From contig JAJPIK010000102.1 in assembly GCA_021324795.1 (NCBI GenBank), forward strand, positions 62,001 to 126,000: 64,000 bases of DNA. The letters run 5' to 3'. This stretch comes from Chloroflexota bacterium (GTDB lineage: Bacteria > Chloroflexota > UBA6077 > FW602-bin22 > CADDYW01). A program made the position numbers and the translations under genes. The notes beneath the pieces were generated by a model. The model ran no database searches. It saw nothing but the letters and a program-made list of their open reading frames with translations, and was not told where the DNA came from. Below, in pieces: positions 3,208-49,414 of the stretch. Each line of letters opens with the position of its first letter. The stretch's first letter is position 1.

Positions 3208-4950
3208 CTAACCTCGCAGGCGCCGCGCCCTCAAAGCCAGCGCCAGGCTGAGGCAACGGTCGAGGTCGTCGACGAAAGGCCCGAGGATCGATTCGATCCG
3301 GTCGAGTCGATGCTTGAGGGTATTGTAATGGACGAAGAGGGTGCGGGCAGTGAGCACACCGTTGCGGCTGCAATTGAGGAAGGTCTCGAGGGTTTGGACG
3401 AGGTTAGTGTGGTGGGCAACGTCGTATGCCAGTAGACGACCGATCGTTTGCTCACAGAACTCGTTCAGCTCGGCCTCGGGACAACTGACGAGCAAGCGAT
3501 CTAGGCCAAGCTCTCGGAAGAGCCAGATCTGGCCCGAGCGCTGGGCTCGCTTACCGACGGCAAGGGCGCGCAAGGCTTCGGCGTGGCTGTCAGCGAGCTC
3601 GAGTGGGTCTTCGCAAACGCGTCCGATGCCAATGCTCACCGCGACCTCCGGCAGTCGACGCTGAGCTTCCCGCTGGATCTCGGCCGCGCATTCCTTGAGG
3701 AGCACAGGACGGTTCGGATCGGCAGCCAGTAGCGCAGCAATGCCGAAACTGCGCTCCCAGACGATCGCCCGCCGACCGAGCGCAGCCATGGCCGCTTCCG
3801 CCAAACGATGACTGATCCGTTGGGTCGCCGTGGGATCCGCTGGCATTCCCGTCGATTTCCCCGCATCGTTCGTTTCGATCTCGGCCACCAGCACGGCGCG
3901 GGGAATCCCGAGGTCCCAGCCAAAAGTGACCGCGTGCTCAAGGAGGCGACTGCGATCGTGGGTGTGGCCATTGACCAGCTCCTCCAGACAGATCACCTGA
4001 AAGCGCCGGTCGGCAGCCGCAATCGCCCGCTCTTGAACAAGCCGCAGGGCCGCGACCGTCGTGGCGTGCTCCAGAGCGATGAGCTCTGCCTCGCCCAGCA
4101 TGCCCGGCTCGGCCTGGACAACGACGGCGCCGTAGAGCTCATCGCTCACCCGAATCGGCTGCACCACCGCGTCATACTCGCCGTGATCTCCCTCGAAACG
4201 CTGCCAGCGCGGGCCAAAGTCACCCTCGGCAGCATCCAAAGGACTGACACTCAGCTTGAGGGCATTGGGTTCCCTCCCCCCTATTCCCTTTCCCGCCGAG
4301 TGGGAGAAGGCACCCAGAGAGTACCCGAGCCGCGGCTGACGAGGCGAGTGCCTTCCCAACAGCGGATCAACTGATCCCCCCTGCTCTCCGAAATCGGGCG
4401 ACCTCGCCAGTAGTGAGCCATCTGGGCGGACAATGCCGACTGGGTGGGCGACGAGCTCGCTTAGCGCCAGGGCAATCTCGCGCAGGCCGCCACCGGCCAG
4501 GGCGATCTGAGTAAATCGACGGTGGATCGTCGCCGATTGCTCGAGGCGTAGGGCCTGGACGTTGAGAATAACGCCAAGCACCGCGTTGATCACGTCGTCA
4601 AACGACGTCTCGAGGGGAAGTTGGATCACGGGGAAGGCGAGAGCGTCGGCCGCTTCGAGCATGGCTGGCGGAATCTGATCGAGATAACGCGCCGGCTTAA
4701 TCGCCAGGCCAGCCAATCCACGCTGAGCTAGGCGCGGGACGAGCGATTCGAGGGCAGCGCGCTTATCTCGTAATGGATAGGCCGTGGTGAGAAGAAGCTG
4801 GTCCGGCTTCACCCAGGCCAGGATATCGGGTACTTCCATGACGTTCACGTAGCGAACCCGACGATCCAAACCAGCCACGCCGGCAACGATCCGCGCTTGT
4901 TCCAAGGGCGCGAGCTTTAGCACCTCGCGCAAGGGGACCCCATCATTCAT
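3208..4950 (-). CDS. PucR/CdaR-family transcriptional regulator
   Basis: A 580-residue regulator. Residues 1-125 are the PucR N-terminal ligand-sensing domain (VPLREVLKLAPLEQARIVAG, ILAWVKPDQLLLTTAYPL). The middle holds a GGDEF-like CdaR region, and the last 65 residues are the HTH_30 DNA-binding domain (RTLFVHYNTLKHRLDRIESIL). In Bacillus PucR controls purine catabolism. Here the gene is divergent from the carbamoyltransferase operon, with palindromic operator candidates in the gap, so it probably controls that operon and itself. A short Pro/Gly/Ser-rich segment around residues 210-228 (GAFSHSAGKGIGGREP) is encoded by a palindromic element at 4266-4316 and looks like an in-frame insertion. 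Confidence 0.9.
   Translation of the reverse strand: MNDGVPLREVLKLAPLEQARIVAGVAGLDRRVRYVNVMEVPDILAWVKPDQLLLTTAYPLRDKRAALESLVPRLAQRGLAGLAIKPARYLDQIPPAMLEAADALAFPVIQLPLETSFDDVINAVLGVILNVQALRLEQSATIHRRFTQIALAGGGLREIALALSELVAHPVGIVRPDGSLLARSPDFGEQGGSVDPLLGRHSPRQPRLGYSLGAFSHSAGKGIGGREPNALKLSVSPLDAAEGDFGPRWQRFEGDHGEYDAVVQPIRVSDELYGAVVVQAEPGMLGEAELIALEHATTVAALRLVQERAIAAADRRFQVICLEELVNGHTHDRSRLLEHAVTFGWDLGIPRAVLVAEIETNDAGKSTGMPADPTATQRISHRLAEAAMAALGRRAIVWERSFGIAALLAADPNRPVLLKECAAEIQREAQRRLPEVAVSIGIGRVCEDPLELADSHAEALRALAVGKRAQRSGQIWLFRELGLDRLLVSCPEAELNEFCEQTIGRLLAYDVAHHTNLVQTLETFLNCSRNGVLTARTLFVHYNTLKHRLDRIESILGPFVDDLDRCLSLALALRARRLRG
4266..4316. repeat. Dispersed palindromic element, copy 1 (inside the pucR-like gene)
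   Basis: A C-rich run leads to CCTTTCCCGC, then a CGA loop and GTGGGAGAAGG, forming an imperfect hairpin. It resembles the copies at 5364, 45671 and 49365. It lies within the regulator reading frame and keeps it open. Confidence 0.55.
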
Positions 4951-4963
4951 CGCATGCTCATTG

Positions 4964-4975
4964 TAGCACGTGCTA
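4964..4975. promoter_or_regulatory. Palindromic operator candidate next to the pucR-like start
   Basis: TAGCACGTGCTA is a perfect 12-base palindrome 14 bases upstream of the pucR-like ATG. Its last bases run into TACAAT on the reverse strand, a plausible -10 box, so binding there would fit autorepression. Which protein binds is inference. Confidence 0.55.
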
Positions 4976-4993
4976 TATCGTACAAGGTGTCTG

Positions 4994-5053
4994 CGTCATT
5001 GTGAGCGCGGCATAATCATTTACCCTTTTTCGAGTGAGTCGCTCACAATGACG
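4994..5053. promoter_or_regulatory. 14-base perfect inverted repeat in the divergent promoter region
   Basis: CGTCATTGTGAGCG (4994-5007) is repeated inverted as CGCTCACAATGACG (5040-5053), with a 32-base spacer that contains CATAAT (5011-5016), a possible -10 box for the operon. The right arm includes the ATG at 5048. It could be a regulator site or, if both arms are transcribed, a hairpin masking the start codon. Confidence 0.6.
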
Positions 5054-6079
5054 AGTCCGTATACCCCGAGTAGGATAACGTCAGTCAAACGAGAAGCAGG
5101 CAGATTGACAAAGGTGAACCAGCTATTCTGGGAAGCGGGCTTGATTAGTCAGGCAATCGTGCCGCTGTTCGAACGTAACCAACGGATCGGTCGCGTTCAC
5201 AGCGTCTTTCGCCGGGCGGTGAACATTGTCTTCGATGGTACGTTAATCACGGTGACTCTGCCGGAGCTTGGCACGATGCCGAATGGCATCGTCGTCGAGG
5301 GAGACCGCGACTTCCAGGCACTCGGCATTGAAGTTGGGATGAAGGTCGTTTTGCGCGGAGCATCCTCTCCCCCTACCCCTTTCTCCCCTACGGAGGGAGA
5401 AGGAGGACTGGTCTTTCCCGACGCGCTTCTAACGATTGGTCTTCGTCACGCGACCAGATGGTCGCCGCGTCTCTCACAGATAGGTCCAGGAAAGCCGTCG
5501 ATTAAGCGGCGAGTCAACCTCGATCGGGCCATGGCCCTCGCCGCCGCGCGCGCGCCGCACCGTGGCTTTGGTCCGTTGCTCGCCCTGCTCGCCCCTTCGG
5601 GTCTTTCGGCCGCGAGTGCAACGATTCCTCCAATGTGCGAATACGCCTATCAAAAGATTGTCGGGGTCATCCGGGCGATCGAGCAGGAAGACTTGGCCAT
5701 GGCGATCGAGGCGGCGGAGATGCTGATCGGCTTAGGCGATGGGCTGACTCCTTCCGGTGATGACTTCCTGGTCGGCTTCGGGGCAGCGATTGCCGCCGTC
5801 GGTCAGCCCTTGGCAGCGCGATTTCTCGAATGCTGTGCCGAGCTTGCCCGCGTGCGCACGACGTTCGTGGGCGCAGCCTTGCTCGCCCACGCCGCGCGCG
5901 GCGAATACACCGCGCGGCTTAAGGCGCTTTTGACAACCCTGCTGACCGGAACCGAACGCGACGTGGCCGAGCAGATTCCGATCGTCCTCGCTTGGGGCAG
6001 CACCTCCGGTGCGGATCTCCTCCTCGGTGTACTCGTCGGCTTGGTCGTCGGCATACGACGACCGGTAGAGGCGTTATGA
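5048..6079 (+). CDS. DUF2877 protein, oxamate carbamoyltransferase subunit AllH-like
   Basis: About 343 residues matching the DUF2877 family, the AllH (YlbF) subunit of the E. coli oxamate carbamoyltransferase AllFGH. The diagnostic C-terminal segment is MLIGLGDGLTPSGDDFLVGFGAA, followed by a helical tail. The first gene of the operon, it overlaps fdrA by four bases (ATGA at 6076). The start is uncertain: ATG 5048 lies inside an inverted repeat and lacks a ribosome binding site, and the frame is open upstream to a GTG at 4970. Residues around 106-121 (SSPPTPFSPTEGEGG) are low-complexity and encoded by a palindromic element, so they look inserted into the normal fold. Confidence 0.82.
   Translation: MTSPYTPSRITSVKREAGRLTKVNQLFWEAGLISQAIVPLFERNQRIGRVHSVFRRAVNIVFDGTLITVTLPELGTMPNGIVVEGDRDFQALGIEVGMKVVLRGASSPPTPFSPTEGEGGLVFPDALLTIGLRHATRWSPRLSQIGPGKPSIKRRVNLDRAMALAAARAPHRGFGPLLALLAPSGLSAASATIPPMCEYAYQKIVGVIRAIEQEDLAMAIEAAEMLIGLGDGLTPSGDDFLVGFGAAIAAVGQPLAARFLECCAELARVRTTFVGAALLAHAARGEYTARLKALLTTLLTGTERDVAEQIPIVLAWGSTSGADLLLGVLVGLVVGIRRPVEAL
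5364..5406. repeat. Dispersed palindromic element, copy 2 (inside the DUF2877 gene)
   Basis: A C-rich run ending in CCTTTCTCCC is followed by a short loop and AGGGAGAAGG, an imperfect hairpin like the copy 1.1 kb away in the divergent gene. The reading frame passes through it without a stop. Confidence 0.55.
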
Positions 6080-7629
6080 CAAAGGCGATCGCGCGCGTGC
6101 TGGTGTTCCCCCACACCTACCGCGACTCGGTGGAGATGATGCGGCTGGCAAGTCTGATCGAGCGTGAGCCGGGGGTGAAGCAGGTTGCCGCGGTCATGGC
6201 GACCCCCGCCAACCGCGCGCTCCTTGAACCGTCCGGGCTTCTGATTGGCGCCGCGCGTCAGGCCGGTCCAGATGACTTGGTGATCGCTGTGCTGGCTGCC
6301 GACGAAAACGCCGCGACCGCCGCGCTCACGCGAGCTCAGACTCTGCTCGCCGGCCAAGCTGAGTTGAGTACTGGCGATAGCCTGAATGAGCCGCCAGCGT
6401 CACGCTCACTCGACGGAGCGGTGGATGCGCTCCCCGGTGCCAACCTCGCGCTGATCTCGGTGCCGGGACCATACGCCGCGGCCGAGGCGCTCAAGGCACT
6501 GAAGCGGGGGCTCAACGTCTTCCTCTTTAGCGATAACGTGACGCTCGACGACGAAGTCAGGCTGAAGCGCCTGGCGATCGAGCGCGGACTGCTCTTGATG
6601 GGACCGGACTGCGGGACGGCAATCCTGGACGGCATTCCGGTCGGCTTCGCCAACGTGGTTCGAACCGGGCCAATCGGCGTGATCAGCGCTTCGGGTACCG
6701 GTCTCCAATCGGTCACCTGCTTGATCGATCGCCAGGGCTCGGGGATCTCTCAGGCGATTGGCGTGGGCGGACGGGATCTGTCAGCGGCGGTAGGCGGCCT
6801 GATGATGTGTGAAGGGATCCAGCGGCTCGGTCGCGATCCGGAGACCCGGATCATCGTGCTGATCTCGAAACCACCTTCGGCAGCAGGATTGGCTAACGTG
6901 GGGAATGCCGTGTCGTCGATTGGCAAACCAGTTGTCGCCTGTTTCATCGGCGCTCCGCCCGGCTCGCTCAAAAGATTTGGTTTGGAGCAGGTCGATACCC
7001 TTGAAGAGGCCGCCCGACTCGCCGTGGCGCTGAGTGGCAATGCTGCTTCAGATAGGCTGGCGATCGATTGCGCAGCATACCCGGCGCCTTCCCAGCCATT
7101 CCCCTTTACGTCGGGTCAGCGCTTTGTGCGCGGACTTTTCGCCGGGGGAACGTTGGCCCATGAAGCGCATCTCCTTTTGCGTGAACGGCTCGGTCTGGTC
7201 GCGGAGATTGAAGAAGGAAATCCCGGCAACGTAGGCGGTCACGCGGTTGTCGACCTCGGGGCCGACGCTTTTACCGTTGGCCGCGCCCATCCAATGATCG
7301 ACGCACGTTTACGCGCCGAGTGGATCGTCGCCACTGCGCACGACCCCAGCGTCGCGGTGATTCTCTTCGACGTGATTCTCGGGTTCGGCTCGCATGCTGA
7401 CCCAGCCGGGACACTTCAGCCAGCTATTCTCGAAGCCCAGCGGGTTGCCGCCGCCGACGGACGGATGCTCGCGTTCATTGCCTCGGTCTGCGGTACGACG
7501 GCTGATCCACAGGGGCTGGCACTCCAAGAAGACAAACTACGGAGTGCCGGGGTTTGGGTCGCGCCGAGCAACGCGGCAGCGGCGCGTTGGACCTTGGCCG
7601 CGCTCGGGGAGGATCGGAAAGGTGACTGA
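6076..7629 (+). CDS. fdrA: FdrA-family acyl-CoA-synthetase-like protein (AllF-type carbamoyltransferase subunit)
   Basis: A 517-residue protein of the FdrA family, related to the succinyl-CoA synthetase alpha fold. The CoA-ligase-like Rossmann segment GPDCGTAILDGIPVGFANVV, the GVISASGTGLQSV loop and GVGGRDLSAAVGG are characteristic. In E. coli FdrA is the AllF subunit of oxamate carbamoyltransferase, acting with AllG and AllH in anaerobic allantoin use. The ATG at 6076 overlaps the upstream stop codon in ATGA, which indicates translational coupling. Length is close to the E. coli protein (about 555). The substrate here need not be oxalurate; the same three-subunit unit occurs in other bacteria without allantoin genes. 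Confidence 0.88.
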   Translation: MTKAIARVLVFPHTYRDSVEMMRLASLIEREPGVKQVAAVMATPANRALLEPSGLLIGAARQAGPDDLVIAVLAADENAATAALTRAQTLLAGQAELSTGDSLNEPPASRSLDGAVDALPGANLALISVPGPYAAAEALKALKRGLNVFLFSDNVTLDDEVRLKRLAIERGLLLMGPDCGTAILDGIPVGFANVVRTGPIGVISASGTGLQSVTCLIDRQGSGISQAIGVGGRDLSAAVGGLMMCEGIQRLGRDPETRIIVLISKPPSAAGLANVGNAVSSIGKPVVACFIGAPPGSLKRFGLEQVDTLEEAARLAVALSGNAASDRLAIDCAAYPAPSQPFPFTSGQRFVRGLFAGGTLAHEAHLLLRERLGLVAEIEEGNPGNVGGHAVVDLGADAFTVGRAHPMIDARLRAEWIVATAHDPSVAVILFDVILGFGSHADPAGTLQPAILEAQRVAAADGRMLAFIASVCGTTADPQGLALQEDKLRSAGVWVAPSNAAAARWTLAALGEDRKGD

Positions 7630-45186: not shown

Positions 45187-45670
45187 ACAACAACACCGAT
45201 TATGATGGGATTCGGCTGGCGGTTGGGGAGGCAGGTCGAACCAGTCGTAGCGTTCGTGTGTCGTGATCGAGCTACCCGGCCGGACGCGAATTGATGCTCG
45301 CCACCATAAAGATAAAGCGGGAGAGCAAATGGAGGATAGTACTTTTATCCCAGCCAGAGGAGGCTTGGGCCGCTGTCCGAATCCTGCGTTGTACCGACGC
45401 AGCGGCTCAAAAGACGTGGGGCCAGCCATCGGGCGCCAGTATAGCATCTTGCTAAGATCAAGACATGTAAAAATTTTGTTAGAAAGCGCAGCTTATCACG
45501 TAGAACCGCTTGGACCACGAAAGACGCGAAACCACGCGGTAAAGATGGAGAGGGAGGCAGACAAGGCAGGATCGGATCAGGTAGAATCAGGCGTAACGGG
45601 CTTTGGCTGTCAGCCAACACACGCACCTGGCCTTTTATCTGATTTAATTCCAGACGGAATCGGCAGGCAG
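45187..45670. other. Intergenic region with CACGAAAG-type sequence
   Basis: No gene is supported. Around 45512-45535 there is CCACGAAAGACGCGAAAC, similar to the inverted repeat at 43017-43074. This may be a second copy of a small intergenic repeat. Confidence 0.4.
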
Positions 45671-45703
45671 CCCTCACCCTAACCCTCTTCCAGAGGGAGA
45701 GGG
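45671..45703. repeat. Dispersed palindromic element, copy 3 (intergenic)
   Basis: CCCTCACCCTAACCCTCTTCC is continued by AGA and GGGAGAGGG, a near-perfect hairpin. It lies 20 bases before the start of the TIM-barrel gene at 45725. Confidence 0.6.
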
Positions 45704-45724
45704 AATCGAGTGCAGGAGAGAGCG

Positions 45725-49364: not shown

Positions 49365-49414
49365 CCCGGGTTCCCTCACCTCTCCCGCGCACGGGAGAGG
49401 TGAGGGAACCCGGG
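49365..49414. repeat. Dispersed palindromic element, copy 4 (between hyuA and hyuB)
   Basis: A perfect 23-bp inverted repeat (49365-49387 with 49392-49414) around the loop CGCA. The core TTCCCTCACCTCTCCC resembles the other copies. In the hyuAB mRNA it would form a very stable hairpin 22 bases after the hyuA stop. Confidence 0.85.

Follow-up and report, generated by a model that had tools for sequence, protein, structure and literature searches.

Two short palindromic inserts, carried by neighbouring genes for a PucR-type regulator and for AllH, are, with a probability of roughly 0.7, solo copies of a palindrome family whose autonomous form is a homing-type cassette encoding a DUF559 nuclease. 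The inserts lie in a window of 64,000 nucleotides from a Chloroflexota genome (contig JAJPIK010000102.1), which is the whole stretch of DNA analysed here. The features of the window and the host proteins that carry DUF559 are listed in Table 1.

Table 1 Palindromic elements and host genes of the window, and host proteins of DUF559 cassettes.
Feature	Window position or locus	Strand	Evidence or detail
Solo palindromic element in PucR-type regulator gene	4269-4310	+ (gene coded on -)	R1 30.3 bits, E 1.3e-4
Solo palindromic element in AllH (DUF2877)	5360-5404	+	R1 28.2 bits, E 3.5e-4
Host gene 1, PucR-family transcriptional regulator, 580 aa	3208-4950	-	ORF; Pfam PucR, GGDEF_2, HTH_30
Host gene 2, AllH, 343 aa	5048-6079	+	ORF; PF11392 (formerly DUF2877), Pfam E 2.8e-24
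Intergenic copy, CCCTCACCCTAACCCTCTTCCAGAGGGAGAGGG, just upstream of a gene	45666-45710	+	Best R1 match in window, 39.1 bits, E 2e-6
Intergenic perfect hairpin, 23-bp arms, 4-base loop, with CCCTCACCTCTCCC	49365-49414	+	R1 17.7 bits, E 0.05
LeuRS	L184		Two DUF559 copies
MetH	L194, L115, L122		Two DUF559 copies in L194
UvrC	L187		
HrpA	L164, L210		
Mur ligase	L177		
MmeI/Eco57I methyltransferases	L137, L162, L165, L167, L189, L192		
HsdM	L135		
HsdS	L191		

Palindromic copies in these two genes had been proposed in the initial annotation, and they were recovered by R1, a covariance model built from 22 genome copies that all lie outside the window. After one intergenic copy, the PucR and AllH elements ranked second and third in the window, and their E-values at whole-genome scale were about 0.01 and 0.03, respectively. 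Each was the best local match of the other within the window. The AllH insert adds 14 residues (SSPPTPFSPTEGEG, about positions 5363 to 5404) in frame, and a 14-column gap was observed exactly at this site in all eight aligned homologues. Judged from this alignment, the AllH element is a clean in-frame insertion that leaves the frame unbroken, as had been claimed. The element in the regulator gene is built of a C-rich outer arm, a CTA spacer, and a stem (CCCTTTCCC/GGGAGAAGG), and adds about 16 low-complexity residues (GAFSHSAGKGIGGREP) between the PucR domain (residues 9-126) and the GGDEF_2 domain (328-465) named by Pfam. Comparison with homologues indicated that these residues were also likely gained by insertion, with edges that are not sharp because linker length differs among the homologues in this region. 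Hence, absence of the extra residues from homologues was confirmed for AllH and is less certain for PucR.

Folded as single strands, both window hairpins were no better than shuffles (z -0.7 for PucR and -0.3 for AllH), and both are eroded; the two elements were therefore identified by family sequence and not by fold. Weak folding and the variable PucR linker are consistent with both inserts being chance low-complexity linkers, but we find this reading barely credible, as the independent model R1 ranked the two near the top at E about 1e-4 and the gap in the AllH homologues is precisely 14 residues.

AllH is a subunit of oxamate carbamoyltransferase according to PF11392, and the ATG at 5048 was chosen as its start. 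Together with an FdrA-like gene, the regulator and AllH make up an apparent oxamate carbamoyltransferase locus for purine/allantoin breakdown (3208-7629). Orthologues of the PucR regulator were 69/55% identical in genome G017 and 62/50% identical in G064, with an AllH gene adjoining it in the latter.

The initial annotation had staked the insertion on two things: residues missing from homologues, as seen in AllH, and further copies elsewhere in the genome. Such copies were abundant. On both strands of the genome, the pattern CCCTCWCCC-N1-30-GGGAGAGG occurred 60 times against 6 for the reversed pattern, and R1 gave 55 matches with E-values no higher than 0.03, some being the two strands of one copy. 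The family layout comprises an outer arm CCCTCACCCC, a spacer, an inner stem CCCCTCTCCC-loop-GGGAGAGGGG, and sometimes a mirrored outer arm. Two intergenic copies in the window had also been reported; the one at 45671 belongs to the family, while the hairpin at 49365 is only borderline by R1 (E 0.05), with arms that are 100% complementary and a folding z of -10.2. Some intergenic copies have extended ends and form a subtype, GAAAT..GGCAGGC-CCCTCACCCTAACCCTCTCCC-loop-GGGAGAGGG-AATTTC (window 45650-45710; L069, L076, L085, and L100), which resembles a longer element with outer inverted repeats.

In-frame copies were present in seven genes of the genome. Besides AllH and PucR, the hosts were a 1150-aa DUF1156 methyltransferase (five hairpins), a 1031-aa membrane protein, a tandem ABC ATPase, a DUF2079 protein, and a NuoE/NuoF fusion, with copies well inside open frames; the comparison of inserts with homologues covered the DUF1156 methyltransferase, AllH, and PucR. 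When the frame of the copies was tested by codon usage, the test proved too conservative for counting in-frame insertions, and it pointed to a copy on contig C90 (L081, G000:C90, 5383-5445) that breaks the frame of an N6-methyltransferase just before motif I, DxACGSGHF. Because this copy splits the methyltransferase out of frame, insertion is not intrinsically in frame, and frame preservation is best read as survival rather than guidance. The split site is the same spot as that of in-frame DUF559 cassettes in other genomes (L167 and L192).

On contig C88 of the same genome, the DUF1156 methyltransferase contains a DUF559 domain between two palindromes, plus further palindromes. The DUF559 family alignment showed invariant D43, E54, D56, G57, D67, and R70. 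The best matches of its predicted fold (pLDDT 92) were NGO0050 (3hrl) and the homing endonuclease I-Bth0305I (3r3p), with which sequence profiles agreed; Vsr was a weaker structural match, and the best PADLOC model was 'homing endonuclease'. On this modelling, DUF559 is predicted to be a nuclease of the same type as Vsr and the homing endonuclease I-Bth0305I.

The association between DUF559 and palindromes was observed in two sets of loci. In the first, taken from 101 related genomes with a Pfam match as the sole criterion, a C-rich hairpin lay within 250 bp of the DUF559 domain in 20 of the 25 loci and on both sides in 12; hairpin density was 3.52/kb near the domain versus 0.08/kb in the stretches of these loci that lie 500-1500 bp away. 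Hairpins were found at 0/19 PucR and 1/14 AllH control loci. For the second set, public genomes were scanned with a DUF559 alignment (A2), and 80 named loci were chosen by similarity to eight relatives. Here, a hairpin was found within 250 bp in 58 loci and on both sides in 31 (2.73 versus 0.14/kb), and the remaining 22 had no detectable hairpin within that distance. By raw counts that ignore kinship, the density near DUF559 was thus 20-40 times that farther out in both sets. Hairpin-bearing named loci came from at least ten phyla (Chloroflexota, Pseudomonadota, Bacteroidota, Nitrospirota, Desulfobacterota, Cyanobacteria, Acidobacteriota, Armatimonadota, Myxococcota, Latescibacterota, and Methylomirabilota); many of the genomes with cassettes are metagenome assemblies, and the palindrome sequences beside DUF559 vary from clade to clade. 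On viral contigs, palindromes stood beside DUF559 in 15 of the 27 closest relatives. Again by raw counts, the bracketing units were inverted in 30 loci and direct in 2 among the 32 in which the tail CCCTCACC could be scored on both sides. Related genomes with DUF559 had a median of 33 palindromes versus 0 in those without it (p 5e-6, kinship ignored).

Two recurrent settings were noted among the named loci. In Bacteroidota L197, L204, and L207, DUF559 is flanked by another palindrome type (CCCCCTAACCCCCTAAAGGGGG) and lies apparently between histidine biosynthesis genes, just before hisF, as judged by eye. In Comamonadaceae-type genomes (L147, L157, L206, and L208), a DUF559 cassette recurs between apparent fadB-type and thiolase genes.

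The palindromes could instead be ordinary REPs moved by a RAYT/TnpA-REP (Y1) transposase that has since been lost here, in which case the DUF559 link would be incidental. REPs in coding sequence are known, Chloroflexi have GTAG REPs, and in-frame REP-type inserts outside Rickettsia have already been published (PMC3733652). We nevertheless consider this origin very improbable. No Y1 domain above the cut-off was found in the own genome, 13 of the 24 palindrome-rich relatives had none, and palindromes were found at 0/20 Y1-transposase loci of the same set of relatives (Fisher p 1.7e-8 versus DUF559, kinship ignored). RAYT was accordingly rejected as the mobiliser after the Y1 search of the own genome and 100 relatives, in which the flanks were checked. 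Like the GTAG/CGTC REPs and REPtrons (PMC3733652), the elements described here are small palindromes that form inverted dimers, cluster, occasionally lie inside genes, and flank an enzyme gene; the enzyme, however, is a DUF559/Vsr-type nuclease and not a Y1 transposase, and no conserved terminal GTAG or CGTC tetranucleotide was found in the consensus of the aligned copies (nnnnCCCTCACCCCCnGCCCCTCTCCCnnnGGGAGAGGGAGnGGnn).

Occupied and empty alleles were found in close relatives. In the DUF1156 methyltransferase, the cassette is present in the own genome and in G001, bounded by GCCCTCACCC and GGGTGAGGGC. At this site, a short linker is seen in G012, whose upstream sequence is 90% identical; in G010, a cassette is found at a different place in this gene. 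Three further sites of the gene hold solo palindromes, B in the own genome only, C in G001 only, and D in common, all in frame and with some host bases replaced. Solo palindromes and DUF559 cassettes are thereby alike in how they insert. In MetH of genus g32, a cassette of approximately 175 aa, in the order palindrome dimer-DUF559-palindrome dimer, lies at the hinge in G070 and G045 and is missing from G033 and G100. MITEs have terminal inverted repeats and a target-site duplication; inverted ends were seen in the bracketed DUF559 loci, and the junctions between occupied and empty alleles showed some replaced host bases and no clear target duplication. Since the empty MetH and methyltransferase alleles have neither palindrome nor DUF559, cassette and palindromes probably arrived together at both sites. 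At the MetH hinge of L340 (G100) and L342 (G078), a different in-frame repeat (CCAATTACCAATTACC, reading NYQLP) stands at the cassette site, which suggests that the hinge tolerates several kinds of insert.

In 24 of the 105 DUF559 loci, the domain was in frame within an ORF that stays open for at least 100 aa on either side, and Pfam named host domains on both sides of DUF559 or a host domain split by it. The hosts included essential proteins (Table 1). In L164, the match to E. coli HrpA runs to residue 245 and resumes at 244, with about 148 extra residues between, and the second insertion in LeuRS falls between residues 460 and 461 of 1h3n. Most of these proteins have no intein splicing motifs: 18 of the 19 DUF559-containing ORFs scanned gave no Pfam intein domain, at a cut-off of 1e-5 in part of the runs, by which weak inteins could be missed. 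The exception was L128, in which DUF559 probably resides within an intein, the match to PF14890 (E 8e-5) falling short of the curated cut-off of that family. L128, L129, and L130 have DUF559 without flanking palindromes, inside apparently intein-bearing proteins.

Hosts were often N6-methyltransferases, type IIG enzymes, or DISARM-type DrmMI, which is what might be seen if hosts such as restriction enzymes had recruited DUF559 as a useful nuclease domain and the palindromes were recombination scars. This seems scarcely plausible, because DUF559 also occurs in proteins that have no need of a nuclease (LeuRS, MetH, UvrC, HrpA, and a Mur ligase) and is free-standing in 66 of the 105 loci.

In a further alternative, the palindromes are repeats in their own right that offer sites for landing or recombination, and DUF559 homing genes insert beside or between them without mobilising them, drawn to the palindromes as tolerated safe sites or as targets. 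Nucleases often home into tolerated sites, solo palindromes greatly outnumber DUF559 genes, and six of the 24 palindrome-rich genomes gave no DUF559 match, several of these six being incomplete. The regular inverted pair formed by the flanking units and the empty alleles that lack palindrome and DUF559 alike argue against it, and we judge it unlikely.

We therefore return to the homing-type cassette, which consists of one or more palindromes, a small DUF559 nuclease gene, and one or more inverted palindromes. The nuclease would cut an empty allele or a palindrome, or DNA close to either; the break would then be repaired with palindromes as homology, or by imprecise end joining with the deletion of some host bases, and the whole cassette or a palindrome alone would be copied in. 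By analogy with the relation of REPs to RAYTs, solo palindromes may be partial copies or cassette remnants. DUF559 may thus mobilise the solo palindromes, and the PucR and AllH copies would be products of the same machinery. Through selection on the host gene, the surviving insertions would be those in loops or linkers that do not interrupt the frame, and the inserts would hence be translated as extra residues.

The initial annotation had likened the two inserts to the Rickettsia palindromic elements (RPEs), which are protein-coding palindromes (Ogata et al. 2002, as cited in PMC3733652). The likeness stands as one of behaviour. Both are short multicopy palindromes, some of them in frame in functional genes where the added residues are tolerated, and an in-frame palindrome absent from orthologues was observed in AllH and at sites B-D of the DUF1156 methyltransferase. 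The present elements differ from RPEs in sequence and hosts and also bracket a nuclease gene, and no tie to the Rickettsia family itself emerged; the NCBIfam scan of the host proteins named no Rickettsia RPE family, which is weak evidence.

With EDxHD/Vsr-type homing endonucleases such as I-Bth0305I, DUF559 shares fold, sequence, conserved acidic residues, presence/absence polymorphism in close relatives, and one likely intein-borne copy. It differs in being usually outside a self-splicing intron or intein, either as an unspliced in-frame insert or alone between palindromes. Hairpin repeats also accompany endonuclease genes in the mobile GC clusters of yeast mitochondria, the double-hairpin elements of fungal mitochondria, and the endonuclease/bypass cassette of T4, all of which insert in or near coding sequence. 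Compared with these systems, the cassettes described here reside in bacterial chromosomes of many phyla, and their in-frame inserts are most simply understood as read through, not bypassed or spliced.

More broadly, we hold it an even bet that DUF559 with inverted C-rich palindromes makes up a widespread and undescribed class of bacterial mobile element, which would colonise genes in frame, persist as an additional unspliced domain in enzymes as essential as LeuRS, MetH, UvrC, and HrpA, seed solo palindromes that become new protein segments, and provide the mobiliser so far missing for those protein-coding palindromes that lack a transposase. No paper linking DUF559 with palindromes or mobility was found in the open-licence literature; because the search covered open-licence papers, an earlier description elsewhere is possible. 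How palindromes enter coding genes has been an open question since the Rickettsia work, and CGTC-type repeats have no known dedicated transposase (PMC3733652). The question is now testable, since palindromes adjoin genes of one nuclease family in ten phyla or more, and close relatives include both alleles with the cassette and alleles that lack it. As the palindromes bracket DUF559 across these phyla, sometimes in frame in essential genes, the nuclease is a candidate engine for protein-inserting repeats. If true, this would explain recurrent low-complexity runs in bacterial proteins, such as LTPGPSPxGRGE, give DUF559 a function, and show one way in which essential proteins gain new segments.
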